Of a stretch of DNA of 12,211 nucleotides, positions 602-11,148 are shown piece by piece (the stretch's first letter is position 1; the number at the start of each line of letters is the position of its first letter). The stretch comes from an uncultured Clostridia bacterium (GTDB lineage Bacteria; Bacillota; Clostridia; Oscillospirales; Ruminococcaceae), in NCBI GenBank assembly GCA_947175045.1, contig CAMWLH010000030.1, positions 1-12,211 on the forward strand. The letters are read 5' to 3'. Under the pieces are notes generated by a model. It was not told where the DNA came from. It saw only the letters and a program-made list of their open reading frames with translations, and did not search any database. The translations under genes and the position numbers were made by a program.

Positions 602-961
602 AACTGCCTCCTGATTTTAAAAAATTTTCCGCGACCCGCCCGCCAAAACTCCGCTGACGCTCCGTTTTCGCAGGCTCTCGCGGAAAATTTCCTGCGTGGG
701 CTAAGCGTTGATCTTTGCAGGCGTTGCTTTTCTTAGTGGGCTTTATGTTGCGCTTTGCGAATGTTGCCTTGATCCGCGGCTACGACGCCGCACCGAATTA
801 AGAGCGTTTTCTCCCGCCGCCCTATGGGCGGCACTCGAAAACGCGGCGGTTCGCCGCCTTTCATTTCCGCAAGCGGAAATGACGCCGCTGACGCGGCGGA
901 ATTCGCTTCGCGAATTGGCGGCGAACCGCCTGCGGCACCCGAAAAGCGCAATCAAACATTT
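602..961 (-). promoter_or_regulatory. Long GC-rich pyk leader packed with palindromes
   Basis: This gene-free stretch is the predicted 5' untranslated region of pyk. Besides element A at its downstream end, it holds several short perfect hairpins: AATTCGC/GCGAATT around 900-916, a 22-base palindrome TCATTTCCGC..GCGGAAATGA around 871-892, CGCCGC/GCGGCG around 893 (one arm each side of TGAC/GTCA), and GCCGCCC/GGGCGGC around 815-832. I see no convincing protein in it; the open frames on both strands are Arg/Ala-rich by-products of the palindromes. It could be a highly structured leader or a cluster of short intergenic palindromic repeats. Confidence 0.5.
621..775 (-). repeat. Structured leader element, copy A (upstream of pyk)
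   Basis: The stem is a perfect 12-bp inverted repeat, AAATTTTCCGCG (622-633) and CGCGGAAAATTT (679-690). It encloses a smaller hairpin with AAAAC/GTTTT arms. Beside it lies the family tail, on the plus strand TGCGTGGGC (693-701) followed by GTTGATCTTTG and GCGTTGC. The tail is itself a degenerate tandem repeat: GTGGGC recurs at 696 and 736 and GTTGC at 723 and 763, a 40-base period. In the pyk transcript the tail comes first and the stem ends a few bases before the ribosome site. This is the most divergent of the four copies. Confidence 0.55.
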
Positions 962-967
962 TCGTAT

Positions 968-996
968 ATTATAACATATTTTCCCGCAAAATTCAA
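968..996 (-). promoter_or_regulatory. Sigma-A promoter for pyk
   Basis: On the minus strand, -35 TTGAAT (996-991) and -10 TATAAT (973-968) are exactly 17 bp apart, and TG one base before the -10 makes it an extended -10. Transcription would start near 961, leaving a leader of about 360 bases before the pyk start codon. The promoter lies just after the ldhA stop codon, so pyk can be expressed alone or by readthrough from ldhA. I see no terminator for ldhA in between. Confidence 0.75.
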
Positions 997-1031
997 GTAG
1001 CAACTTTCTCAAAACACAAAATATCCGCTGC

Positions 1032-2015
1032 TTATTTTTTTGCTTTGATCTCGTTTTTCAGTTCTTTCCCCGCGAAAAAATCATCCAGGTTGCCCAGCGT
1101 GACCTCCGCGATACCTTTCAGCGCCTCCTCCGTCAAAAACGCCTGGTGCGAGGTCAGCAGCACGTTCGGGCGCGACACAAGGATAGACAGTATTTCGTCC
1201 GTGACAATGCTGTCGGAGTTATCCTTAAAAAACAGATCGCTCTCCTCCTCGTACACGTCCAGAGCCGCGCCGCCTATACGCTTTTCGTTCAGCGCGCGCA
1301 AAAGAGCCTCGCTGTCTATCAGCTTGCCGCGGCTGGTATTGACGATAAGCGCGCTGCTTTTCATCAGCGATATCGCATCGTCGTCAATAATATACCTTGT
1401 CTGCTCCGTCAGCGGGCAGTGCAGGGAAATAATATCCGAGCTCCTGAAAAGCTCATCGGTCGACACATATTCAATCCCGCTGTTCTCCGCAGGGTATGGA
1501 TCGTACGCAATCACTTTCATGCCAAACCCGCGGCAGATATCAATAAATACCCGTCCGATCTTTCCCGTGCCGATGATCCCCGCCGTCTTTCCGTAAAGAT
1601 CGAATCCCGTCAGACCGTTCAGGCTGAAATTAAAATCTCTTGTGCGGTTGTAGGCGCGGTGTATCTTCCTGTTCAGCGAAAGTATCAGTCCCATAGCGTG
1701 CTCCGCCACGGCGTAGGGCGAGTACATTGGAACTCTTACGACCTTCAGTTTGCCTTCCGCCGCTTCGATATCCACATTATTGAACCCCGCGCAGCGCATG
1801 GCGATGATCTCCACTCCCTGCTCCGCCAGCAGCTCGATAGTCCTCGACGATATATCGTCATTAACAAACGCGCAGACCGCCCGGCAGCCCTCCGCGAGCT
1901 TCACCGAAGCCGGACGCAGCCTACCCACAAAATAATTTATCTCATAATTCTTGTTGATTTTGTCAAACCACTCCGTATCATATGGCTTAGTGTCAAAAAA
2001 GGCAATTTTCTCCAT
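1032..2015 (-). CDS. ldhA: D-lactate dehydrogenase (2-hydroxyacid dehydrogenase family)
   Basis: This 327-residue protein reduces pyruvate to D-lactate with NADH in the cytoplasm, regenerating NAD+ during fermentation. It closely resembles the LdhA branch: FVNDD (50-54), CAGFNNVD (75-82), AVAEHA (102-107) and NRKIHRAYNRTRD (115-127). The nucleotide-binding loop GTGKIG is at 149-154 and is followed by the acidic residue of YDPYP. The catalytic Arg229 (NTSRG), Glu258 and His290 (SHQAF) have the spacing known from lactobacillar D-LDH. The start at 2015 was chosen because AAGGAG lies seven bases upstream. An ATG further out at 2048 would add 11 basic residues and has no such site. The length is normal. 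Element B lies 5' of it, in the sense direction. I could not identify its own promoter with confidence. Other 2-hydroxyacid dehydrogenases are less likely given the motif match. Confidence 0.94.
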   Translation of the reverse strand: MEKIAFFDTKPYDTEWFDKINKNYEINYFVGRLRPASVKLAEGCRAVCAFVNDDISSRTIELLAEQGVEIIAMRCAGFNNVDIEAAEGKLKVVRVPMYSPYAVAEHAMGLILSLNRKIHRAYNRTRDFNFSLNGLTGFDLYGKTAGIIGTGKIGRVFIDICRGFGMKVIAYDPYPAENSGIEYVSTDELFRSSDIISLHCPLTEQTRYIIDDDAISLMKSSALIVNTSRGKLIDSEALLRALNEKRIGGAALDVYEEESDLFFKDNSDSIVTDEILSILVSRPNVLLTSHQAFLTEEALKGIAEVTLGNLDDFFAGKELKNEIKAKK

Positions 2016-2463
2016 TCTTTTCTCCTTATTTTTAAAAATTTTCCGCACCGCACACTCCGTCGCTTCGCGTCAGAGTCAGACTGTATATAAAGGTTGACCT
2101 GAATTGGATTATTTTAAAAAATTTCAAAATTTCCGCAAGCACGCGCCGTTCGCTGCGCTCACTCCGCGCGTTTGCGGAAACCGGTCATAATTTGCGCAGC
2201 AAATTATGACACTTTTTGAAATTTCATGCGCCGACATTGCGTGGCAAATAGGCTTTTTCTACAAGCTGACTCCGTCGCTTCGCGTCGGAGTGTGCTAGCT
2301 CGCCGTAAAAGTTTCCCGCGTGGGCGAGGTGCTGCTTTTTAAGGACATTGCTTTACTGCGGAAGCTATATGTTGCTCTCAGCAAACATCACTTTATGTGG
2401 CTTTTTGATATTTTGCTCGGATTTTCCTCGAATAATCACAAACCATTTTTTGGAATTTATTTT
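2016..2463. other. Gene-free stretch upstream of ldhA
   Basis: This stretch has element B in the middle and, at 2319-2420, degenerate copies of the family tail (GCGTGGGCG, GTGCTGC, GACATTGC). Next to ldhA is a short palindromic stretch with ACTCCGTCGCTTCGCGTCAGAG (about 2054-2075); a related block with ACTCCGTCGCTTCGCGTCGGAG recurs at about 2270-2291. The open frames across it have no coding character. I found no convincing ldhA promoter here. Confidence 0.5.
2119..2345 (-). repeat. Structured leader element, copy B (upstream of ldhA)
   Basis: The closing stem is an 11-bp perfect pair, AAATTTCAAAA (2119-2129) and TTTTGAAATTT (2214-2224). Inside are two hairpins. The larger one pairs TTTCCGCAA (2130-2138) with TTGCGGAAA (2172-2180), and within it ACGCGC (2141-2146) with GCGCGT (2166-2171). 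The smaller one pairs CATAATTTGC with GCAAATTATG around a three-base loop (about 2185-2208). The tail lies to the right (from 2225, with a better match at about 2317-2345). In an ldhA transcript the order is tail, closing stem, small hairpin, large hairpin, closing stem. The core ends about 100 bases before the ldhA start. Confidence 0.7.
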
Positions 2464-2466
2464 GCA

Positions 2467-2632
2467 CAAAAAAAGCGGCTCGGAAAAACCGAACCGCAAA
2501 ATCATTTTCGCCGCAAGCCCTCACACCAGCGGCTTGATCGTCACAGAGGAAAGAAGAAGTCGTAAAAACCGCCCCGATGGAACGATGAATGTAAAAACCG
2601 AATCGAAATAAGATTAAGTAGCTTTCGGGGAC
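2467..2632 (-). ncRNA. Candidate small RNA with own promoter and terminator
   Basis: A strong minus-strand promoter (2667-2639) and a canonical minus-strand terminator (2497-2468) bracket about 165 bases with no credible open frame or ribosome site. The predicted transcript begins near GTCCCCGAAAGC. CCCCGA (2630-2625) can pair with TCGGGG (2577-2572), and CAAGCC with GGCTTG forms a second hairpin further on. The motif CGGTTTTT occurs three times in the transcript (starting near 2600, 2571 and 2491), the last in the terminator hairpin. I do not recognise it as SRP RNA, tmRNA, RNase P or 6S RNA. It could instead be a prematurely terminated leader of ldhA, whose start lies about 450 bases past the terminator. 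Confidence 0.5.
2468..2497 (-). terminator. Rho-independent terminator of the candidate small RNA
   Basis: On the minus strand, GCGGTTCGG (2497-2489), a five-T loop and CCGAGCCGC (2483-2475) form a 9-bp stem with one G-U pair. Seven T follow (2474-2468). The T run lies downstream only in the minus direction, so the terminator serves the minus strand. Confidence 0.85.
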
Positions 2633-2638
2633 AATATT

Positions 2639-2667
2639 ATTATACTTCTTTGTGAGCCTTTTTTCAA
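2639..2667 (-). promoter_or_regulatory. Sigma-A promoter of the candidate small RNA
   Basis: On the minus strand, -35 TTGAAA (2667-2662) is followed after exactly 17 bp by -10 TATAAT (2644-2639). The predicted start is near 2632. The terminator about 135 bases further on suggests a short dedicated transcript. Confidence 0.7.
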
Positions 2668-2786
2668 TACAAAAATAAAGGAATTTTGGTTTCCTGTTAT
2701 TTCTGAACGCTTTTATGACGGAATTTGACGCAAAAAAGAATAACATGGTTCAATTTGAAATATTTGTTAATTTTGCTTTACCGCAT

Positions 2787-2841
2787 GGGAATATATTTAT
2801 ATTTCATTGCCGCAAAATATATGTATTTTTTATATATTCCC
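2787..2841. promoter_or_regulatory. Inverted repeat just upstream of the nrdD promoter
   Basis: GGGAATATAT (2787-2796) is repeated as its exact reverse complement ATATATTCCC (2832-2841), 45 bp apart start to start, and ends 10 bp before the -35 box. The AT-rich spacer contains a further ATATTT/AAATAT pair. The position fits an operator. Clostridial nrd genes are commonly controlled by NrdR, whose paired boxes are also AT-rich dyads, but these arms do not match the usual ACACTATATATTGTGT-type box well. Confidence 0.4.
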
Positions 2842-2851
2842 CAAAAGTACC

Positions 2852-2880
2852 TTGACAAAAACTTCAAAAAACTATATAAT
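2852..2880 (+). promoter_or_regulatory. Consensus sigma-A promoter for nrdD
   Basis: TTGACA (2852-2857) and TATAAT (2875-2880), both perfect matches, are separated by 17 bp. Transcription should start near 2887, giving a leader of about 105 bases before nrdD. nrdG has no promoter that I can see, so this probably drives both genes. Confidence 0.85.
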
Positions 2881-2893
2881 AGATTTAATCGCT

Positions 2894-2923
2894 GTCATTG
2901 CTACAAGATGTTGTGGGAATGAC
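2894..2923 (+). promoter_or_regulatory. Hairpin at the 5' end of the nrdD leader
   Basis: GTCATT (2894-2899) pairs with AATGAC (2918-2923), and inside it CTACAA (2901-2906) pairs with TTGTGG (2911-2916, one U-G) around a GATG loop. The two stems are separated only by a G-G mismatch. No T run follows, so it is not a terminator. It begins within ten bases of the predicted transcript start, so it may protect the 5' end or take part in regulation. It matches no riboswitch I know. Confidence 0.5.
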
Positions 2924-2992
2924 AAAAAACGCGGTGAGAGCTTATGCAGCGCCGTTTGAGATGAAATCAAGACGTTAAGGAGTACGGGCAAA

Positions 2993-5242
2993 ATGGCAAT
3001 GATTACAATGATCAAAAAAAGGGACGGCAGGCAGGTTCCGTTTAATATCGAGAAGATAGCCTCCGCGATATACAAGGCGGCGCAGGTAGTGGGCGGAAAC
3101 GACTACGGAGAGGCTATGAGGCTAGCGGACGAGGTGTGCCAGCAGCTCTCCATGTCCATAATCGGGCGCAATCCCTCGGTGGAGGAAGTCCAGGATATGG
3201 TGGAAAAGGTTCTTATCGAGGGCGGGCACTCCAAGACCGCCAAGGCGTACATTCTCTACCGCGCGGAGCGCACCAGGGCGCGCGAGATGGACTCCAAGCT
3301 GATGAAGATATACGAGGATCTCACCTTCAAATCAGCGGGAGAGTGCGACATTAAACGCGAAAACGCCAATATCGACGGCGACACCGCCATGGGAACCATG
3401 CTGAAATACGGCTCGGAGGGAGCCAAGCAGTTCAACGAGATGTACGTTCTCGACCCCGCCCACTCCCACGCTCACATAAACGGCGACATACACATTCACG
3501 ATCTGGACTTTCTGACGCTCACCACCACCTGCTGCCAGATCGACCTGTTAAAGCTGTTCCGCGGCGGGTTTTCCACGGGACACGGTTTTCTGCGCGAGCC
3601 CAACGACATTGTAAGCTATGCCGCGCTCGCCTGCATAGCTATCCAGTCCAACCAGAACGACCAGCACGGGGGGCAGTCCGTGCCCAATTTCGACTACGCC
3701 ATGTCGGAGGGCGTGAAAAAGACCTTCCGCAGAATGTACACCGCAAATCTTGCCAAGGCAATATGCTTTTCGCGCGGCAGCACCGATTTCGCCGAGGAGA
3801 CCGAAAAGCTGAAAAACGCTGCTAAGGACATCGCCGAGAAATACGGGCTTTATCCCAGGCTGATGGATAATTTTGACTATAAGGCGAAGGAATGGGAGCT
3901 GCTCGCGCGGGACTACGGCGACAATTTCTCCGCGCTCCAGGACAGCGCCGAGAAGCTGGCGGAGCAGGAGACCGACCGTTCTACCTACCAAGCTATGGAG
4001 GCTCTTATTCACAACCTCAACACCATGAATTCCCGCGCGGGCGCGCAGAATCCGTTCTCGTCGATAAACTACGGCACGGACACCTCTCCCGAGGGACGCA
4101 TGGTAACGCGAAACGTGCTTCTTGCGGAGGAAAGGGGCTTAGGCAGCGGAGAAACCCCTATTTTCCCCATTCAGATTTTCAAGGTCAAGGAGGGCGTGAA
4201 CTTTAACGAGGGCGACCCCAACTACGACCTGTTCAAGCTGGCTATCCGCGTTTCCGCAAAGAGAATGTTCCCGAATTTCAGCTTTATTGACGCGCCCTTT
4301 AATCTCCAATATTACAAAGAGGGCGACTACAACACCGAGATATCCTATATGGGCTGCCGCACCCGCGTTATCGGCAACTTCTACGACCCGAGCCGCGAGA
4401 TAGTCACCGGCAGGGGCAATCTCAGCTTCACCACGATCAATCTGCCCCGCCTGGGAATTGAAGCCAAAGGCAATATCCAGAAGTTCTACCGCGACCTTGA
4501 CGATATGATGGATCTGGTGATAGATCAGCTCACCGCGCGCTTTAAAATACAGTGCTCAAAAAAGGTCAAAAATTACCCGTTTCTTATGGGGCAGGGAGTG
4601 TGGATAGATTCCGAGAAGCTCGCGGACGACGACAATATCGGAGAGATATTGAAGCACGGCTCTCTCACAATGGGCTTTATCGGTCTGGCGGAGTGCCTTA
4701 AGGCGCTTATCGGAGCTCATCAGGGAGAAAGCGAGGAGGCGCAGCGTCTGGGTCTGGAGATCGTTGCCCATATGCGCGAGCGCGCGGACAGACAGTCCAA
4801 GCAGACGGGTCTGAACTATACACTGATCGCCACCCCCGCGGAGGGTCTTTCGGGAAGATTTATCAAGATCGACAAGAAAAAATACGGAATAATCGAGGGA
4901 GTGACCGACAAGGATTACTACACAAACTCTTTCCATATTCCGGTTTATTACAATATCAGCGCGTTCAAGAAAATTCGGCTGGAGGCTCCCTACCACGCGC
5001 TCACCAACGGCGGGCATATCAGCTATGTGGAGATGAACGGCGACCCGCTCAAGAACCTTGACGCATTCGAGCAGATAGTGCGCTATATGAAGTCCGAGGG
5101 CATAGGCTACGGCGCGATAAATCACCCCATCGACCGCGACCCCTGCTGCGGTTTTACGGGAATAATCGACGACGAATGCCCCGTCTGCCACCGACATGAG
5201 GACGAAATACGGTTTGATCGGTTCCGCCGCGCCAAATCATAA
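2993..5242 (+). CDS. nrdD: Anaerobic (class III) ribonucleoside-triphosphate reductase lacking its glycyl-radical tail
   Basis: NrdD reduces ribonucleoside triphosphates to dNTPs without oxygen, using a glycyl radical installed by NrdG. The 749-residue protein has an N-terminal ATP-cone (about 4-95, KKRDGRQVPFNIEKI) and then the catalytic barrel with HIHDLDF, NPFSSINYGTD, NYDLFKLAIRVSAKR and YMGCRTRV, where Cys455 is the likely thiyl cysteine. A zinc-site region near the C-terminus has Cys718, Cys719, Cys729 and Cys732. The start is fixed by AAGGAG (2977-2982) ten bases upstream. The end is abnormal. After the zinc site the family normally continues into an RRITGYLVGT-like segment bearing the radical glycine, then a helical tail. 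Here it reads FDRFRRAKS and stops, seven bases before the tail of element C. I found no GYL-type motif in any forward frame to 5464. All other parts look intact. It is either a truncated gene or works with a separate radical subunit. Confidence 0.93.
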   Translation: MAMITMIKKRDGRQVPFNIEKIASAIYKAAQVVGGNDYGEAMRLADEVCQQLSMSIIGRNPSVEEVQDMVEKVLIEGGHSKTAKAYILYRAERTRAREMDSKLMKIYEDLTFKSAGECDIKRENANIDGDTAMGTMLKYGSEGAKQFNEMYVLDPAHSHAHINGDIHIHDLDFLTLTTTCCQIDLLKLFRGGFSTGHGFLREPNDIVSYAALACIAIQSNQNDQHGGQSVPNFDYAMSEGVKKTFRRMYTANLAKAICFSRGSTDFAEETEKLKNAAKDIAEKYGLYPRLMDNFDYKAKEWELLARDYGDNFSALQDSAEKLAEQETDRSTYQAMEALIHNLNTMNSRAGAQNPFSSINYGTDTSPEGRMVTRNVLLAEERGLGSGETPIFPIQIFKVKEGVNFNEGDPNYDLFKLAIRVSAKRMFPNFSFIDAPFNLQYYKEGDYNTEISYMGCRTRVIGNFYDPSREIVTGRGNLSFTTINLPRLGIEAKGNIQKFYRDLDDMMDLVIDQLTARFKIQCSKKVKNYPFLMGQGVWIDSEKLADDDNIGEILKHGSLTMGFIGLAECLKALIGAHQGESEEAQRLGLEIVAHMRERADRQSKQTGLNYTLIATPAEGLSGRFIKIDKKKYGIIEGVTDKDYYTNSFHIPVYYNISAFKKIRLEAPYHALTNGGHISYVEMNGDPLKNLDAFEQIVRYMKSEGIGYGAINHPIDRDPCCGFTGIIDDECPVCHRHEDEIRFDRFRRAKS

Positions 5243-5246
5243 AAAA

Positions 5247-5391
5247 AGCAGCATAACGCCCACGCATCGGAATTTCAAAAAGTGCGCATTTGCCTTAACG
5301 GCAAATGCTGCACGGTTTCGGCTAAGCACGCGCAGCGCAGTGGAGCGAAGCAGAGCTGCGCGGAGTGTGGTTAGCCGAAATTTTGAAATTC
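5247..5391 (+). repeat. Structured element, copy C (between nrdD and nrdG)
   Basis: This is the best folded copy and looks like a three-way junction. The closing stem pairs GAATTTCAAAA (5270-5280) with TTTTGAAATTC (5381-5391). The small hairpin pairs GCATTTGCC (5286-5294) with GGCAAATGC (5300-5308). The large hairpin pairs TTTCGGCTAA (5316-5325) with TTAGCCGAAA (5371-5380), with an inner CGCGCAGC (5329-5336) and GCTGCGCG (5355-5362). Upstream is the tail CAGCATAACGCCCACGCAT (5249-5267), identical over 19 bases to the opposite strand of copy D. It follows the nrdD stop by a few bases and ends 73 bases before nrdG. It lacks a T run after the stem. Confidence 0.75.
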
Positions 5392-5464
5392 TCATTTAAA
5401 TCATTTAATTCTTGTCAACATAACCCAATAGCAAAACAGCCAAGATTAACCCCCGGAGTGAAAT

Positions 5465-5995
5465 ATGATCAGCGAAAATCAAGAAAATTCAAACAAGTTA
5501 AGAATCGCGGGTATCGTTGAGGAATCCTTTGTTGACGGTCCCGGGATACGCTTTGCGGTGTTTGTGCAGGGCTGCCCGCACCGCTGCGAGAGATGTCACA
5601 ATCCCGAGACCCACGATTTCGGCGGCGGGCGCGAGGTCGATACTGACGAGCTTTTTGAGCAGTGCCTCGCCAATCCGCTTATAAACGGAGTTACATTTTC
5701 GGGCGGAGAGCCCTTCTGCCAGGCGGCGGCGCTGTATAAGCTGGGCTGCCGCTTCAAGGAGAGCGGCTTAAACCTCATGTGTTACAGCGGCTGGACGTTT
5801 GAGGAGCTTCTGGAGAAATCGATCTCGGAAGAGGACGTTAAAAATCTGTTGTCGATATTGGATCACCTTGTGGACGGAAGATTTGAATTGTCGCAGCGCT
5901 CTCTTCAACTGAAATTCCGCGGCAGCTCAAATCAGCGGATAATCGACGTGCAGCGATCCCTTTCGGAAAACAAGGCGGTAACGGTCGAACTGTGA
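5465..5995 (+). CDS. nrdG: Anaerobic ribonucleotide reductase activating protein (radical SAM)
   Basis: NrdG is the radical-SAM enzyme that cleaves S-adenosylmethionine to create the glycyl radical on NrdD. The 176-residue protein has the 4Fe-4S motif CxxxCxxC at Cys37, Cys41 and Cys44 (GCPHRCERCHNPETHDF), preceded by FVDGPGIRFAVFVQ. It also has the SAM-binding TFSGGEP (77-83) and YSGWTFEEL in mid-protein. The LKFRGSSNQRIIDV segment near the end is typical of the family. The length is normal. The start has GGAG (5455-5458) six bases upstream. It lies 222 bases after nrdD with copy C between, and probably shares the nrdD promoter. An intact activase next to an NrdD without a radical site is what makes the pair odd. 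A pyruvate formate-lyase activase is unlikely at this size and context. Confidence 0.93.
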   Translation: MISENQENSNKLRIAGIVEESFVDGPGIRFAVFVQGCPHRCERCHNPETHDFGGGREVDTDELFEQCLANPLINGVTFSGGEPFCQAAALYKLGCRFKESGLNLMCYSGWTFEELLEKSISEEDVKNLLSILDHLVDGRFELSQRSLQLKFRGSSNQRIIDVQRSLSENKAVTVEL

Positions 5996-6009
5996 TTTTA
6001 AAAAACGAG

Positions 6010-6042
6010 TGCTCCCCGACTGAGATGGGGAGCATCACTTTT
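6010..6042 (+). terminator. Terminator after nrdG
   Basis: TGCTCCCC (6010-6017) pairs perfectly with GGGGAGCA (6027-6034) around a nine-base loop, and a short CACTTTT tract follows. It starts 15 bases after the nrdG stop, so it probably ends the nrdD-nrdG unit. The T run is short and termination may be incomplete. Confidence 0.65.
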
Positions 6043-6107
6043 CGGTTTCAACCGTAAAATATCACAAAAAAATCATTATTTAATCCCCCGCCGCTATGCT
6101 TTTTATA

Positions 6108-6136
6108 TAGACAATTCTCCTGTTTTGTGCTATAAT
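6108..6136 (+). promoter_or_regulatory. Sigma-A promoter for the peptide-binding lipoprotein
   Basis: TAGACA (6108-6113) and TATAAT (6131-6136) are 17 bp apart, with TG at 6128-6129 making an extended -10. The start would be near 6143, about 22 bases before the ribosome site. The stretch 6043-6107 upstream shows nothing else I can support. Confidence 0.75.
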
Positions 6137-6179
6137 AATTCAATAAACCCAAAACAACGCACATAAGGGAGCGATTAAA

Positions 6180-7799
6180 ATAAAACCCATCAAGAAAATC
6201 CTTGCCGCTGTTATTGCCGCGGCAATAATAACTCTTACGGGCTGCCGCGAGGAAGACGGCAGCGGCTATATTTTCAAATATGACATCTCCGCCAACCCCG
6301 GCACACTTGACCCGCAGATTGCCAACGACCCAAACTCCGAGGTCGTTATAAGCAATGTCTTTATGGGACTTCTCACCGCCAACGCGGACGGCTCTCTGTC
6401 CGAGGGTGTGGCGAGCGATTATATAGTATCCGACGACGGCTTGGTCTACACCTTTAAGCTGCGGCAGGACGTCTACTGGGTGGACTCCGGCGAGTTTGAG
6501 CAGCAGTGCACCGCAAAGGATTTTGTATACGGCTTTCAAAGACTTTTTCTCCCCGAGACCTCCGCGCCGAGGGCTTCGGAATACTACTGCATAAAAAATT
6601 CCCGCGCTGTAAATACGGGGGGAAGCTCCGACGCTTCGATCCTCGGGGTGAAGGCTCTGGGGGACTTCGAGCTGGAGATCACCCTTGAATACCCCAACCC
6701 GCGTCTGCCCGCGCTGCTGTCCGAGCCGCCCGCCATGCCCTGCTGCGAGGATTTCTTCGTCGGCTCTCAGGGAAAATACGGACTGTCCGCGGAGTGCACT
6801 CCCTCAAACGGCGCGTTTTACGTCTACGCCTGGGACTACGACCCCTACACTCTCACCGATAACAACAATCTGATACTCCGCCGCAACTCGAAAAACAGCG
6901 AGGCGCGTACGGTCTACCCGTCCGGGCTTAACTTCTTTATAGAAGAGGACGGCGATTTTGCCGCGGATTTTCTGGGCGGCACCACCACCTGCATTGCGGT
7001 CACCGACGAGGAAGCGGCGCTTATCAAGGGTGAATACGGCTGTGAGGAATTTAAAAATATCACGGTAGGGCTTATTTTCAACCGCGGATATGAGCTGTTC
7101 AAAAACGAGGATTTTCCCCGCGCTCTGGGAACCCTCACCGACAGACGAACCATAAACAAAGCGCTTACCCACTTTGCTCCCGCCTACGCGATAGTTCCCG
7201 AGGAGGTCTCCATGCTTGACAAGAGCTACCGCGAGCTTGCGGGGAGCTCCCTTACGCCGAAATACAGCGCGGAGACCGCGCGCGGATACTATGATAAGGC
7301 TCTGCCATCGCTCAACAAAGACCTTTTCGCGGGAGCGCGGATAATCGTCCCGAACGACAGCGCGGCGGAGGCTGTGGGCTATCTTATGCAGGAGTGGCAG
7401 CGGGAATACGGCTTCTACTGCGTGGTAGAGGTTCCGGGCGAGCAGGAATACCTCTCGCGGCTGAAAAGCGGCGATTATGAAATAGCCGCGCTGGAGCTTA
7501 CCGGCAGCTACAACAGCCCCTCGGCATACCTGGAGAGCTTCCGCCGCGGCAGCTCCGCGAACTACGGCAAATACAGAAGCACCGAGTTTGAGGAGCTTAT
7601 GGACGCCGCGGAGAAAGCGGTAGACCTGGCGGAAAGCGCGGAGCTCTACGCCAAAGCGGAGCAGCTTCTCATCGACGATGCGGCATTCGTTCCGCTGTAC
7701 TACAAGAACGAGTATTTTTATTATGACAAGGACTGCAGCGATATTATCTACAATCCCTTTACCAAAAACGTCTATTTCCGCGATGCCAAGAAATTTTAA
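6180..7799 (+). CDS. Peptide ABC transporter substrate-binding lipoprotein with apparent AUA start
   Basis: This looks like a family 5 extracellular solute-binding protein (OppA/DppA type), which captures oligopeptides outside the cell for an ABC importer. From 6180 the 539-residue product begins (I/M)KPIKKILAAVIAAA, a lipoprotein signal ending in the lipobox LTGC (19-22), so Cys22 would carry lipid. Then come SANPGTLDPQ, VFMGLLTANADGSLSEGVASDY and a long periplasmic-type fold ending in AFVPLYYKNEYFYY, all typical of the family. The start is unusual. An in-frame stop is at 6144, and no ATG, GTG or TTG occurs in frame before ATG 6363, which would remove the signal peptide. AAGGGAG (6165-6171) lies eight bases before ATA at 6180; ATT at 6174 is too close. 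The gene stands alone between two terminators, without permease or ATPase genes. The exact ligand is unknown. Confidence 0.85.
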   Translation: MKPIKKILAAVIAAAIITLTGCREEDGSGYIFKYDISANPGTLDPQIANDPNSEVVISNVFMGLLTANADGSLSEGVASDYIVSDDGLVYTFKLRQDVYWVDSGEFEQQCTAKDFVYGFQRLFLPETSAPRASEYYCIKNSRAVNTGGSSDASILGVKALGDFELEITLEYPNPRLPALLSEPPAMPCCEDFFVGSQGKYGLSAECTPSNGAFYVYAWDYDPYTLTDNNNLILRRNSKNSEARTVYPSGLNFFIEEDGDFAADFLGGTTTCIAVTDEEAALIKGEYGCEEFKNITVGLIFNRGYELFKNEDFPRALGTLTDRRTINKALTHFAPAYAIVPEEVSMLDKSYRELAGSSLTPKYSAETARGYYDKALPSLNKDLFAGARIIVPNDSAAEAVGYLMQEWQREYGFYCVVEVPGEQEYLSRLKSGDYEIAALELTGSYNSPSAYLESFRRGSSANYGKYRSTEFEELMDAAEKAVDLAESAELYAKAEQLLIDDAAFVPLYYKNEYFYYDKDCSDIIYNPFTKNVYFRDAKKF

Positions 7800-7812
7800 T
7801 GCAACAGCAATT

Positions 7813-7833
7813 CCCCCGCGCAATGCGCGGGGG
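7813..7833. terminator. Shared terminator between convergent lipoprotein genes
   Basis: CCCCCGCGC (7813-7821) and GCGCGGGGG (7825-7833) form a 9-bp GC-only stem with a three-base loop. It lies in the 41-base gap between the convergent peptide-binding protein and mannanase genes, so it probably works in both directions. Neither side has a long T run (plus side ATCAAATTTATT). Confidence 0.65.
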
Positions 7834-7840
7834 ATCAAAT

Positions 7841-9172
7841 TTATTCAAAAACGCTGCATTTCTCCGAGGTCTTGCGTATACCCGTATCTCCCTCGATCAG
7901 ATTAACGCCCCATTCCTCCGAAAGCCTTGAGCCGTCCCATTCCAGCGCGATATCGAGATATTCGACTCCCCCGCCGTTGCCCTTCCAGCTCCAGCCGAGA
8001 TAGCCTATATCGTTCTCGCCGCAGTACTGCATAATAAACGCCTCGTCAACGTCGCCGTCGGAGTGGTTGTAGCCGAACTCCCCGACGATAACGCACAAGC
8101 CCTTTTCGGTAACGCGCGCCAGATTCTGCCTTATGACTCTATCATTTTTGCCCGCCGAGCCGTACATATGTATCGAAAACATAGTGTTTTGCAGCGGGTC
8201 TGCCGCGAATACCTCCTCACCGCCGTCGGAGATGCTCTTGGCGTACTGCCCCCAGCCCGCGGCGTCTACGATTATAGTGTTCTTGATACCCGCTTCCCTC
8301 AGCCTGGGAATAGCCGCGGTATAGCCCTGCGTCCAGATATCGGAATCCCACGTTCCTACCCACTCATTGGCTATATTAAGCAGAACATAGGCTTCGTTGC
8401 CTATAAGCGCGTCCTTGACCTCTATCCAGTAATCAACGGTTTTTTCCAGGGCCGACAGCTCGTCCTTGCCGGTTATGTCGTGAACCTCAAGTATGGCTAT
8501 CATTTCAAGAGCCTTGCAGCGCTCCACCAACCGCGACAGGGTCTCCGCGCTGTCTCTGGCGTACTGCTGACCGTCGCCGCACACTATCCTCACACAGTTC
8601 GCGCCTGTCTCCGCTATTGCCGCCAGCGCAATATCATCTTTGTCTTTAAACCAGCTGTGCGGGTGATTTATCCCGCGCATTACAAACTCGTTGCCGTTTG
8701 CGTCGTACAGCTTTGTTCCCGAAACGTAAAAGCCCTCCGCGCCCTCATGCGGTTTGTCTGCGGGAGCTTCCTCCGAGGGCTCGGGTGAAGCCGCGGGCGG
8801 AACACTGCTTACCGAGCCGCTTTCCCGCTCGCTTACCGACGAATTATCCTCGGGAGCCCGCGAGCTGTCCGAAGCGCCCGCCTCGGGATCGCTTTCCGTA
8901 TCAAGCGGAGCCGTGCTGTCCGACCCGCTCTCGGAAGGAGCCGCCGTTTCGCTTTCGGAGGAGTTATCCTTAGTGTTGACCGGCGCGGTGCTTTCCGTAC
9001 CGCTCTCACTGCCGCTTGCGCCATCGCTGTCATCGGACGCGGCACTGTCCCGAATATCCGCCGAGCTTACCCCCGACGACCCGGTATCAATGCTGCTGTT
9101 GCTGCTCTCGGAAGCCGCGCAGCCGCTTATCATCATTACTGTCGCCAGCAGAATTGCCGTAAGTTTTTTCAT
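7841..9172 (-). CDS. GH5 subfamily 8-type beta-mannanase lipoprotein
   Basis: This is a 443-residue surface-anchored enzyme likely to cut beta-1,4-mannan. MKKLTAILLATVMMISGC is a lipoprotein signal with lipobox ISGC (Cys18). Residues 19 to about 145 form a low-complexity Ser/Glu/Asp/Pro/Thr linker with repeated STAP and ESGS units, which would hold the enzyme away from the membrane. The catalytic domain (about 147-443) closely follows GH5_8 mannanases such as those of alkaliphilic Bacillus: GFYVSGTKLYDANG, RGINHPHSWF, LEVHDITG, NIANEW with acid/base Glu270, DAAGWGQY, FSIHMY, VGEFG with nucleophile Glu365, and WSWKGNG. There is no carbohydrate-binding module. The start has AAAGGAG upstream. 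I found no clear promoter. The subfamily is assigned from remembered homologues; mannanase rather than cellulase activity is likely but inferred. Confidence 0.92.
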   Translation of the reverse strand: MKKLTAILLATVMMISGCAASESSNSSIDTGSSGVSSADIRDSAASDDSDGASGSESGTESTAPVNTKDNSSESETAAPSESGSDSTAPLDTESDPEAGASDSSRAPEDNSSVSERESGSVSSVPPAASPEPSEEAPADKPHEGAEGFYVSGTKLYDANGNEFVMRGINHPHSWFKDKDDIALAAIAETGANCVRIVCGDGQQYARDSAETLSRLVERCKALEMIAILEVHDITGKDELSALEKTVDYWIEVKDALIGNEAYVLLNIANEWVGTWDSDIWTQGYTAAIPRLREAGIKNTIIVDAAGWGQYAKSISDGGEEVFAADPLQNTMFSIHMYGSAGKNDRVIRQNLARVTEKGLCVIVGEFGYNHSDGDVDEAFIMQYCGENDIGYLGWSWKGNGGGVEYLDIALEWDGSRLSEEWGVNLIEGDTGIRKTSEKCSVFE

Positions 9173-9228
9173 AAAAGTCTCCTTTCAAATATAAGGCAGC
9201 GCCGCACACTCTGCTCAACGCTCAGTCC

Positions 9229-9429
9229 TTAATAAGTGTACATAAACATGCCGCTCGGCTGCAATATTTCATCAATATAATTTATATAAAAATCCGTGAA
9301 ATCAACGTTCAGAGTTTCAAACAGTTTCAGCGCAGATATAAATTTGTCAATGAAAATAAAGCTTTTCTTCTGAAAAAAATATTCTCTTTGAATATCAAAA
9401 TCGGGAAATCTGTCCTTGTTCAATTCCAT
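9229..9429 (-). CDS. Small AT-rich open frame of unknown function, possible gene remnant
   Basis: The 66-residue product (MELNKDRFPDFDIQREYFF... ending SGMFMYTY) is rich in Phe, Ile, Tyr and Asp and looks protein-like, but I do not recognise a family. The DNA is visibly more AT-rich than the genes on either side. No ribosome site precedes the ATG at 9429. The frame stays open upstream for 21 more codons up to the TGA that ends the diguanylate cyclase, so 87 sense codons in all are open. That is long for AT-rich DNA by chance. It may be the end of a gene whose 5' part was lost, or a small protein translated from the cyclase message. It has no signal peptide or membrane segment. The rest of the gap 9173-9492 shows nothing I can support. 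Confidence 0.35.
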   Translation of the reverse strand: MELNKDRFPDFDIQREYFFQKKSFIFIDKFISALKLFETLNVDFTDFYINYIDEILQPSGMFMYTY

Positions 9430-9492
9430 AAATCGTATTTGAAATGCTCTTACAAAATACTCGTTTATAATTGCAAAAAATGAGCTATACCG

Positions 9493-10767
9493 TCATATCA
9501 CCACTATATCGTCGATCGCCTCGGGAATGCTCTCCACAATGCAGTTTCTGCCGTGGTTTTTGCCGTAATACAATCTGCTGTCCGCGGCGTTGACCAGCGC
9601 GTCCACCGTGCCGCCCTCATAATCCGATATACCGAATGTCATTGTAACGGATATATCCCGCCCCTCATATTCACAGCGGTAGGCGTGTATTCTGTCCATT
9701 ATCCGCCGCAGCGCCTCCAGCGCCTCGTTATATGGCACATTGAAGATCAGCAGAAATTCCTCTCCGCCCCAGCGCGAAGCGAAGCCAATATTCCTTACTC
9801 CGTCCCTCAATATCCCCGAGATATCCTTCAAGACCTCGTCGCCGCAGGCGTGTCCGTAATTGTCGTTAAAGCGCTTGAAAAAGTCGATATCCCCTATCGC
9901 CGCCACAAAGGGAGCTCCCTCCGAGCCGGCTCTGTCCCGAAGATCGTTCATTTTTATCCCGCAGGCGCGGCGGTTATACAGCCCCGTAAGCGGATCGTTG
10001 GAAATAAGTTTTCTGAGCGCCTGCTGGAGCTTTACCGCGCTTCTTCCCATATCGCCTATTTCGTCTCTGCGGTTTACCAGCCGCGCGTCAGCCACACATT
10101 CGGTATCACCCTGCGAGATAACGCGCAGGAAATCTGCCGCCGACAGCAGCGCTTTGACCATTCCGCCCGACACCAGCACGCTCAGCAGACCCGCCGCCAG
10201 CGCCGTCACCCATGACAGTACCAGAGAGCCTGCCACCGATTTGACCAGATTTTCGAGAACCGATTCGCGGCTTTTTCCCGCGAAAACCATTCCCGTCACC
10301 GAGCCGCCCTGATCGGCAATCGGCATATAATAACCGAAAAATTCCGTACCGTTAACGTCCACATTGTCCGAGAAAAACTCCTCGCCGCCGCCGAGAACCG
10401 TGTTCACTACCTCTGCCGCCGCTCTTGTTCCCACAGCGCGCTCTCCGCTTGAGTTGGTCACGGTAGTTATCTTTCGTTTATCTCCCTCAAAAACCGTTAT
10501 GTAAATTCCCGTTCTTTCCGTTATCCCGTCGAACAGATCAGCCTTATTGTCAAAATAATCATACTTTTCGGCGGCGTACTGCTCGTTGTGCTCCAGCATC
10601 TCAAACACGCTCACGCATACGCCGGACATCTCGTGAGATATCTCGTCACATACGTTCTGATAGCCGGAAAATCCGATAAATATCGACATGACCACCGACA
10701 AGATCATCAGCGGAACTATCGTCAGCGCCGCGACCTTGCCCGTCAGCCCAAACCCTTTATGTGCCAT
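9493..10767 (-). CDS. Membrane diguanylate cyclase with extracytoplasmic Cache-like sensor
   Basis: This protein makes cyclic di-GMP from two GTP in response to an outside signal. The 424 residues hold TM1 (about 11-33), an extracytoplasmic region (34-175) resembling single-Cache sensors (GERAVGTRAAAEVVNTVL, GTEFFGYYMPI, VTGMVFAGKSR), TM2 (about 176-200), a HAMP-like linker (about 200-252) and GGDEF (about 255-412). The active-site motif is RWGGEEF (332-338), with Asp293 (GDIDFFK) as metal ligand and NDNYGH (301-306), so the enzyme looks active. The product-inhibition I-site, normally RxxD, reads RNIG (325-328) and is probably lost. The start at 10767 has GAGG seven bases upstream; ATGs at 10784 and 10887 lack one. 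A consensus promoter (11120-11148) gives a 345-base leader with element D. I see no terminator after it. Confidence 0.93.
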   Translation of the reverse strand: MAHKGFGLTGKVAALTIVPLMILSVVMSIFIGFSGYQNVCDEISHEMSGVCVSVFEMLEHNEQYAAEKYDYFDNKADLFDGITERTGIYITVFEGDKRKITTVTNSSGERAVGTRAAAEVVNTVLGGGEEFFSDNVDVNGTEFFGYYMPIADQGGSVTGMVFAGKSRESVLENLVKSVAGSLVLSWVTALAAGLLSVLVSGGMVKALLSAADFLRVISQGDTECVADARLVNRRDEIGDMGRSAVKLQQALRKLISNDPLTGLYNRRACGIKMNDLRDRAGSEGAPFVAAIGDIDFFKRFNDNYGHACGDEVLKDISGILRDGVRNIGFASRWGGEEFLLIFNVPYNEALEALRRIMDRIHAYRCEYEGRDISVTMTFGISDYEGGTVDALVNAADSRLYYGKNHGRNCIVESIPEAIDDIVVI

Positions 10768-10863
10768 TCCGTTTCCTCTTTTCATATATTTAAGCGAAAA
10801 ACGCCGTTGTTTTTGAACTATGATGCTTTTAAGCTGTGTTGACGAGAGGCAAAAATTTAAAAA

Positions 10864-11070
10864 GAATTTCAAAGTTCCCGCAAGCACGGTCCGCTCACGG
10901 AGTTTTGCGCAAACGGCTGCAAAATGCTGTAAATAACCGTATGACCGCCGCGCACAACTTACCGATCGCGGAAACCGATCAGAATTTGCCGCGCAATTTC
11001 CGAACTCTTTTTGAAATTCCCATGCGTGGGCGTTATGCTGATCTTTATGGACGCTGCCTTTGCTTCTCGG
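10864..11070 (-). repeat. Structured leader element, copy D (upstream of the diguanylate cyclase)
   Basis: The closing stem pairs GAATTTCAAA (10864-10873) with TTTGAAATTC (11010-11019). The small hairpin pairs GAATTTGC (10982-10989) with GCAATTTC (10993-11000), with one T-T mismatch. The large arm is looser, TTCC/GGAA with CGC/GCG nearby. The tail contains ATGCGTGGGCGTTATGCTG (11022-11040), identical to the reverse strand of copy C, then ATCTTTATGGACGCTGC. In the cyclase transcript the order is tail, closing stem, small hairpin, large hairpin, closing stem, as in copies B and C. The core ends about 100 bases before the start codon. Confidence 0.7.
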
Positions 11071-11119: not shown

Positions 11120-11148
11120 ATTATACCAAAAAAAATTCACCCTGTCAA
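11120..11148 (-). promoter_or_regulatory. Consensus sigma-A promoter for the diguanylate cyclase
   Basis: On the minus strand, TTGACA (11148-11143) and TATAAT (11125-11120) are perfect matches, 17 bp apart. The start near 11113 leaves a leader of about 345 bases containing all of element D. The next plus-strand promoter lies about 100 bp away, so the two GGDEF genes are divergently transcribed. Confidence 0.85.

Follow-up and report, generated by a model that had tools for sequence, protein, structure and literature searches.

Structured repeats of a Ruminococcaceae genus, found most often in the position of sense 5' leaders

The window analysed here is a stretch of 12,211 nucleotides (nt), contig C30 of a draft genome (G000; 2.55 Mb in 443 contigs, 78% complete) from an uncultured bacterium of the family Ruminococcaceae. 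It contains four related elements, copies A to D, which precede, respectively, the pyruvate kinase gene (pyk), an ldhA-like dehydrogenase gene, nrdG and a gene for a diguanylate cyclase, and all four are in sense orientation relative to the next gene. The reading favoured here, held with moderate confidence and drawn from sequence comparison, is that these elements are copies of a mobile repeat family that would serve as structured sense 5' leaders, perhaps protecting the messenger RNA (mRNA). So far, the family has been found in this genus only, where its commonest place would be that of a sense 5' leader. An earlier note on the same DNA had described the four elements and had judged a leader regulator to fit better than random insertion, a proposal of which some parts are upheld below and others are not.

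Extent and fold of the family

With copy C as a DNA query, 55 match rows were obtained in this genome. A covariance model, R1, was built from an alignment (A2) of 30 copies, all from this genome, in which 14 of the 34 predicted pairs show changes on both sides. Searched against the same genome, R1 gave 105 matches up to an E value of 1, of which the best 90 (122 to 28.8 bits) were analysed further; the 76 with at least 45 bits are referred to as strong matches, and they rule out a simple leader that exists in four copies. Within the genus, matches at E ≤ 0.001 were found in 12 of 43 genomes, that is, in 11 of the 42 besides this one, while 31 had no match. This genome counts 75 such matches and the other carriers 73, 58, 41, 23, 14, 14, 11, 10, 9, 3 and 1, in a search that scored at most 86 candidates per genome under stricter filters. 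None of 16 genomes from other genera (a first set of relatives) matched R1, and in an order-wide sample of 295 genomes only this genome matched; since just 12 candidates per genome were scored in that sample, it supports a restriction to the genus weakly.

Covariance-model searches gave no match to a known Rfam family: the window had no match among 4227 families at the gathering score, the region of copy C (5200-5470) had none up to E 1, and in 10 related loci transfer RNA was the sole match. Likewise, no such repeat family is described in the titles and abstract openings of the literature covered, which excluded subscription papers and preprints.

The core of the family, as shared by copies B, C and D, is a three-way junction with the order closing stem (AATTTCAAAA/TTTTGAAATT), AAAAAG, small hairpin, CGGTT and large hairpin. 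Covariation in this structure was assessed with 83 copies from relatives, none of which had been used for R1, and which were aligned to R1 and are in that sense fitted to the structure. In this set, 95.9% of the cells are paired and compensatory changes on both sides occur at 28 of the 34 pairs, so that the claim of the earlier note that pairing is kept through changed sequence extends to copies outside the model. The covariation score of these copies is 0.444, versus 0.132 (standard deviation, sd, 0.006) after shuffling, with none of 500 shuffles as high, and versus 0.022-0.064 with slid partners. This constitutes strong evidence for a conserved structure, obtained from related copies and not corrected for their tree. 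When 27 copies from several genomes were folded without constraint by RNAalifold, the closing and large stems were recovered, together with just three pairs of the small hairpin; two-sided changes were present at 19 of 29 pairs. The junction letters AAAAAG and CGGTT are conserved while the stems exchange freely.

The strand on which the structure acts may be read from its wobble pairs. On the sense strand, G.U cells outnumber A.C cells by 166:34 in the relatives and by 105:5 in A2 when all pairs are counted, and by 75:26 and 56:5 when the end and junction pairs are left out; for the small hairpin taken by itself, the counts are 27:4 and 23:3. An excess of this kind is compatible with a single strand that acts in the sense direction.

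A simpler form of the family, of which copy A is an example, consists of a single hairpin. Twelve such copies (A included) were found in 275 kb of DNA chosen around R1 matches, and nine of them run straight into a Shine-Dalgarno sequence and ATG. Upstream of some cores, units of about 40 nt stand in tandem, and units of about 30 nt are found downstream, like expandable modules (loci L026, L029 and L071). The genus also contains another palindromic repeat (TTAAGGCAATACCGCACAAAG...TTGCCTTAA), seen at L019 and L030, near position 7030 of contig C6 of this genome, and in the nrdD-nrdG spacers of the relatives G006, G013 and G023.

Orientation, placement and mobility of the copies

Genes around the copies were called by a simple codon-score script. 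In this genome, 45 of the 90 matches lie in sense with both neighbours, 9 in antisense, 13 between divergent genes, 6 between convergent genes and 17 at contig ends; among the 76 strong matches, those with co-directional neighbours are 38 sense versus 9 antisense. The relatives were represented by 76 loci from seven genomes, mostly picked from the best-scoring matches rather than at random, in which 98 matches at E ≤ 0.001 were found and the 8 weakest (up to 40.2 bits) were dropped. The resulting 90 comprise 66 sense, 6 antisense, 8 divergent and 3 convergent copies and 7 at contig ends (sense versus antisense, p = 7e-14), with sense to antisense ratios of 19:1 in G048, 20:1 in G049, 14:2 in G023, 7:0 in G018, 4:2 in G006, 1:0 in G024 and 1:0 in G013. 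The sense orientation first noticed in four copies is thus a genome-wide bias that returns in the relatives and, when both sets are pooled, applies to 111 of 126 co-directional copies.

The distance to the gene is equally characteristic. In the relatives, the core ends 14-22 nt upstream of the start codon in 46 of the 77 copies with a sense downstream gene, and the 54 core-gene junctions (from this genome, G048, G049, G018, G023, G006 and G013) mostly read core-TTTAAATAAGGAG-N-ATG or a near form. Together, orientation bias and spacing rule out random insertion as the sole account. Seven cores have divergent genes on their two sides and a start codon no more than 25 nt away. Five of these are from relatives and two from this genome, one of the two, C17:4440, being weak at 29.1 bits; in such a position, the promoter of the gene very probably lies upstream of the core. 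In 54 copies, the letters of the Shine-Dalgarno sequence have a predicted probability of being unpaired of 0.613 behind the native core versus 0.513 behind shuffled cores (p = 6e-4). A sequestering ON/OFF switch is not favoured, the region being more open with native than with shuffled cores.

Regarding the genes served, 140 downstream entries (some genes twice) show no common function apparent by reading their starts; the names assigned by this reading include gyrA, topA, trpS, uvrC, mraY, dnaN, aroA, dnaK, lepA, ffh and transketolase. By sequence comparison, the presence of a core at the same gene is patchy between species. At the nrdD-nrdG locus, 29 relatives gave no R1 match up to E 1; the spacer could be located from the nrdD stop codon in 25 of them (not in G001, G016, G019 and G024). 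Inspected by eye, this locus holds in G009 and G057 a different element, which has inverted repeats of the same kind and a terminator-like hairpin on either side, and in G050, G041 and G058 the terminator-like hairpin alone. Before the transketolase gene, an R1 match is present in 3 of 30 loci (G048, G018 and G049), a single-hairpin relative was recognised by eye in G051, and G024, with a protein 88% identical, has neither. Among 14 cross-genome BLASTP pairs of downstream genes, six were judged orthologous. Their leaders are 61-77% identical, and their mean identity to other leaders of their own genome is 64-84%; in three of the six pairs, the leader of the orthologue is more distant than every own-genome leader, or than every one but a single exception, and the remaining three are mixed, one of them joining G006 and G023, the two closest sets.

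Some copies bear the marks of insertion. At a tolerance of one mismatch, this genome contains 53 instances of the inverted repeat CAGNCTGTANANAAAG versus 4 of a reversed control, and with up to three mismatches it stands beside 26 of the 76 own-genome cores versus 2.5 expected from shuffled flanks. Of 13 copies with two such ends, 12 could be tested for duplicated flanks against a null of 144 mismatched flank pairs, and in 7 of the 12 the flanking direct repeat exceeds 95% of the null (six lie above its maximum and the seventh equals it). These duplications comprise 9 to 25 identical positions (22 of 23 at copy B, 25 of 25 at C17:8175), their right copy starting at the end of the element and their left copy stopping 0-8 nt before it. 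Moreover, the inverted-repeat ends abut a hairpin in 40 of 47 cases, a count in which both ends of an element enter although they are not independent; among 3000 random positions, 20.7% do so.

A possible partner for such movement is found in G021, which encodes a full-length IS1182-family transposase (324.7 bits, cut-off 270) flanked by like ends, with one and two mismatches; a 21-nt hairpin duplication was recognised there by eye. No match to the transposase family NF033551 at E ≤ 1e-10 was found in this genome, which is 78% complete; an interrupted transposase start of 39 amino acids, itself a weak match (E 0.01, 14.8 bits), lies behind a matching end. Copies with inverted repeats have a sense to antisense ratio of 12:5 versus 92:10 for copies without them (p = 0.04 pooled, 0.10 in this genome), a weaker bias that hints that retention, and not insertion, makes the bias.

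A young element of 193 nt, with the flanking units of the family around a different core, was seen at L230 (contig C33 of this genome, contig coordinates 5081-5273), where by eye it is bordered by a perfect 25-nt duplication of an imperfect palindrome. Its ends are present in L224-L229, L232, L233, L235, L236 and L238-L243, and several copies are cut off by the end of a contig, which would fit a break of the assembly at this element. At L226 (G000:C53:38-53), a copy of it begins right after GCATCGGAATTT, the start of a three-way-junction element; one repeat seems there to have inserted into the closing stem of another.

Copies A to D in the window

The coordinates of the four copies and of their neighbours are collected in Table 1. 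For B, C and D, the folds and coordinates agree with the earlier description of a closing stem, an AAAAAG linker, a small hairpin, CGGTTTC and a large hairpin, and with its observation that arms of different sequence each have a matching partner. Copy A shares the GCCCACGCA tail, but it lacks the part with AAAAAG and the small hairpin and is a single long hairpin, whose 3' arm stops 17 nt upstream of the pyk start codon. The genes named earlier are supported by Pfam, a 4Fe-4S/radical-SAM protein being taken as NrdG.

Compared with 200 dinucleotide shuffles each, the copies have fold z-scores of -5.72 (C), -3.78 (B), -2.16 (A) and -0.45 (D). R1 matches copy C with 100.7 bits and copy B with 97.0 bits, both being in its training set, and it matches copy D with 55.6 bits, though D is outside that set. 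Copy D lies 93 nt upstream of the start of the GGDEF gene. The extra sub-hairpin in its large hairpin (about TTTTGCGCAA ... TTGCGCAAAA) recurs at L027, L040 and L023:587-810.

Judging by the 23-nt hairpin duplicated on its two flanks, copy B reads as an insertion that split an A-like hairpin leader of the dehydrogenase gene. This duplication, with the inverted repeats of B, and the placement of cores next to Shine-Dalgarno sequences go beyond what the earlier note contained.

A scan of the window for promoters returned 23 sites versus 10.6 (sd 3.0) in shuffles, all of them consensus matches only. Transcription from the site just upstream of D would include this copy in the 5' untranslated region of the GGDEF gene; from the site before nrdD, C would be transcribed as part of the stretch that separates nrdD and nrdG, and the promoter-like sites fit sense transcription through all four copies. 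A terminator scan returned 23 sites in the whole window versus 16.1 (sd 4.1) in shuffles and flagged none in the sense direction of any of the four copies. The stretch 780-960, which separates copy A from the dehydrogenase gene's end, is very GC-rich, with dense palindromes.

Table 1. Features of the window, with strand and basis of assignment
Feature	Coordinates	Strand	Basis
Copy A: GCCCACGCA tail with one long hairpin (677-692 paired with 619-633)	619..701	-	fold z-score
Repeat-like 5' units (AAAGCAAC...AGCCCAC) upstream of copy A	702..775	-	direct reading, alignment
3' arm of A-like hairpin leader of dehydrogenase gene, presumed insertion site of B	2034..2053	-	inferred from duplicated hairpin
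Right copy of 23-nt duplicated hairpin flanking B	2054..2076	-	22/23 identical to 2269-2291
Right terminal inverted repeat of B (CTTTATATACAGTCTG in sense)	2077..2092	-	sequence
Copy B core: closing stem 2214-2224/2119-2129, small hairpin 2199-2210/2184-2195, large-hairpin arms 2172-2180/2130-2138	2116..2227	-	fold, R1
Left terminal inverted repeat of B (CAGCTTGTAGAAAAAG in sense)	2253..2268	-	sequence
Left copy of 23-nt duplicated hairpin flanking B	2269..2291	-	22/23 identical to 2054-2076
Same A-like hairpin: 5' arm 2298-2317, GCCCACGCG tail 2315-2325	2298..2325	-	sequence
5' tail of copy C (AAAAAGCAGCATAACGCCCACGCA), directly after nrdD stop codon	5243..5266	+	sequence
Copy C core: closing stem 5269-5280/5381-5391, small hairpin 5282-5294/5300-5313, large hairpin 5314-5325/5371-5380	5267..5394	+	fold, R1
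3' unit following the core of copy C (TTTAAATCATTTAATTCTTGTCAACA...), ahead of nrdG	5395..5430	+	sequence
Copy D core, extra sub-hairpin inside large hairpin	10861..11022	-	R1
5' tail of copy D (GCATAACGCCCACGCATGGG)	11019..11046	-	sequence
pyk, pyruvate kinase, downstream of A		-	Pfam
D-isomer 2-hydroxyacid dehydrogenase (ldhA-like), downstream of B	1035..2048	-	Pfam
nrdD (NrdD), upstream of C		+	Pfam
4Fe-4S/radical-SAM activase, taken as NrdG, downstream of C	5465..5995	+	Pfam
Cache-GGDEF diguanylate cyclase, downstream of D	9496..10767	-	Pfam
Promoter-like site, 10/12, upstream of copy A and pyk	968..996	-	consensus match only
Promoter-like site, 11/12, upstream of copy B and dehydrogenase gene	2639..2667	-	consensus match only
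Promoter-like site, 12/12, upstream of nrdD, ahead of C	2852..2880	+	consensus match only
Promoter-like TTGACA-17-TATAAT, 12/12, extended -10, just upstream of D	11120..11148	-	consensus match only

Possible function, rival explanations and known systems

The favoured reading, that of a mobile family of sense 5' leaders, can be put as a sequence of steps. The cores would have spread, at least partly, by an IS1182-type transposase whose targets were hairpins, both those of terminators and those of older leaders, and would then have been retained where they lay in sense within a 5' untranslated region. In this position, the folded core, standing between upstream RNA and the ribosome site, may shield the mRNA from 5'-to-3' decay, and it may also act as insulation, so that the Shine-Dalgarno region does not become paired with sequence further upstream. 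Its role would be one of general support and not that of a metabolite switch. In Bacillus, the STAB-SD, ermC and aprE leaders show that a folded or ribosome-protected 5' end can prolong the life of an mRNA with the ribosome site unhidden. These are cases of single genes, whereas the family described here is a repeat, and the likeness would lie in the proposed role as a 5' stabiliser. A bolder form of the reading, considered unlikely, makes the core a portable, self-folding leader for tens of unrelated genes per genome, whose invariant junction is read by a dedicated cellular factor while the sets of genes turn over.

Several results weigh against the favoured reading. Copy D folds no better than its shuffles, 59 of 200 of which fold as well, so D alone is not convincing and owes its recognition to R1 rather than to the energy of its fold. 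In 151 of 166 cores, the sense strand has the better fold of the two, by a mean of 6.75 kcal/mol, but shuffled cores already do so in 149 of 166, by 5.32 kcal/mol, which makes the difference between strands mostly one of base composition; the excess of G.U cells may come from base composition or from strand-biased mutation. With regard to placement, the 14-22 nt spacing is present in just 9 of the 52 strong copies of this genome with a sense downstream gene, a low number explained by the extra 3' unit that most copies here bear, and promoter-like sites are not enriched upstream of the relatives' cores that adjoin Shine-Dalgarno sequences (17 of 46 versus 12 in shuffles). Without any core, the Shine-Dalgarno region is predicted to be still more open (0.704); in these predictions, the site is less hidden by the core than by a random leader, yet it is no more open than with no leader at all. 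Five of the 12 testable two-ended copies have no clear flank duplication, and in the relatives inverted repeats with up to three mismatches lie near cores at chance level (5 of 90 versus 3.6), so that the involvement of IS1182 is shown just for part of the copies of this genome. Finally, on the antisense strand AAAAAG and the small hairpin read as a hairpin followed by CTTTTT, like an intrinsic terminator, and the terminator scan flags the antisense strands of B (2184-2216, +) and C (5308-5282, -). Loss of antisense copies would therefore be a simpler cause of the bias, although one that leaves the narrow spacing unexplained.

This last point is central to an alternative that is somewhat unlikely, in which the family is a selfish repeat like a miniature inverted-repeat transposable element (MITE), the sense bias results from the loss of antisense, terminating copies, and the structure serves transposition or termination. 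Antisense copies inside an operon or a leader would end transcription there, and sense copies would be tolerated. The terminator-like antisense sites of two of the four window copies, the occurrence of AAAAAG in 149 of 166 cores, the inverted repeats and hairpin duplications with an IS1182-family partner in the genus, and the weaker bias of copies with inverted repeats, as loss over time would give, all speak for it. Antisense loss does not account for start-codon spacings of 14-22 nt in several species, however, the small-hairpin excess of G.U over A.C in sense runs the wrong way for a hairpin of antisense RNA, and most sampled cores of the relatives are without inverted repeats. The stretches of T after the closing arm lead to a very improbable alternative, that of sense-strand attenuators like SPRITE or BIME repeats, which would limit read-through into the gene: the hairpins are strong, insertions occurred at terminator hairpins, and at least four T follow in 108 of 166 copies (at least five in 43). 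These runs are short and vary between species, the terminator scan flags nothing on the sense strand of A to D, and a position between convergent genes is rare (6 of 90 copies here and 3 of 90 in the relatives).

If the constancy of the junction letters amid exchanged stems and the position adjoining the Shine-Dalgarno sequence are given most weight, a trans-acting regulon comes into view, in which AAAAAG and CGGTT bind one protein or small molecule and, in each genome, some tens of genes are thereby tuned in their translation or decay. This is held to be quite unlikely, as reading the downstream entries revealed no shared function, an analysis that was not a search for switches showed no structure in which the Shine-Dalgarno sequence is hidden by pairing, and the core is absent from most species at the two genes checked. 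For the earlier proposal of a leader regulator rather than an insertion, the consequence is twofold. Conserved pairing and sense bias stand, while the choice between the two falls away, given target-site duplications at B and in 7 of 12 testable copies with two terminal repeats. A regulator in the sense of a switch is not supported, given the incoherent genes, a Shine-Dalgarno sequence hidden no more than by shuffles and the alternative of antisense loss.

Other bacterial repeats offer partial parallels. According to the portions of the cited source that were available (PMC3049150), BOX, RUP and SPRITE of Streptococcus pneumoniae are small, structured and partly modular intergenic repeats, some of them co-transcribed with genes, which follow the coding bias mildly (60.8-63.3% on the leading strand) and, between convergent genes, are more frequent than expected. 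The family described here is also small, intergenic, structured and partly modular, and it differs from them, on the same portions, in the proportion of co-directional copies that are sense (111 of 126) and in the narrow start-codon spacing in the relatives. ERIC, Correia and BIME elements alter the stability or expression of the mRNAs they are transcribed with, ERIC doing so in a given orientation; unlike the family here, a three-way junction and a fixed placement before the Shine-Dalgarno sequence are not among the features described for them in that text (PMC3049150). Such repeats insert into one another, and MITEs that form riboswitch-like leaders are conceivable, as stated in the accessible part of a review (PMC10969869). 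As for the mode of insertion, members of the IS1182 family such as IS1272 have inverted repeats as targets, and new IS1272 insertions replaced their target without duplication, as far as the available text of the source goes (PMC5678879). The present elements likewise target hairpins, and their ends resemble those of the IS1182 element of the genus. By comparison with that account of IS1272, the target hairpin is here duplicated, the elements have no transposase gene and most copies are without inverted repeats.

Repeats that alter the expression of nearby genes are known already. What would be notable here is a repeat that, in several species and at dozens of genes with nothing evident in common, is found most often at one short distance ahead of the Shine-Dalgarno sequence, and whose structure is retained through exchanges of sequence. 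Hairpin-targeted insertion of the IS1182 type, with duplication of the whole hairpin, would be extended to elements without a transposase gene. If the favoured reading is true, the family would be a clear case of the wholesale adoption of repeat DNA as mRNA leaders, and it would make testable the idea that structured 5' ends are a general and interchangeable support for bacterial mRNA.

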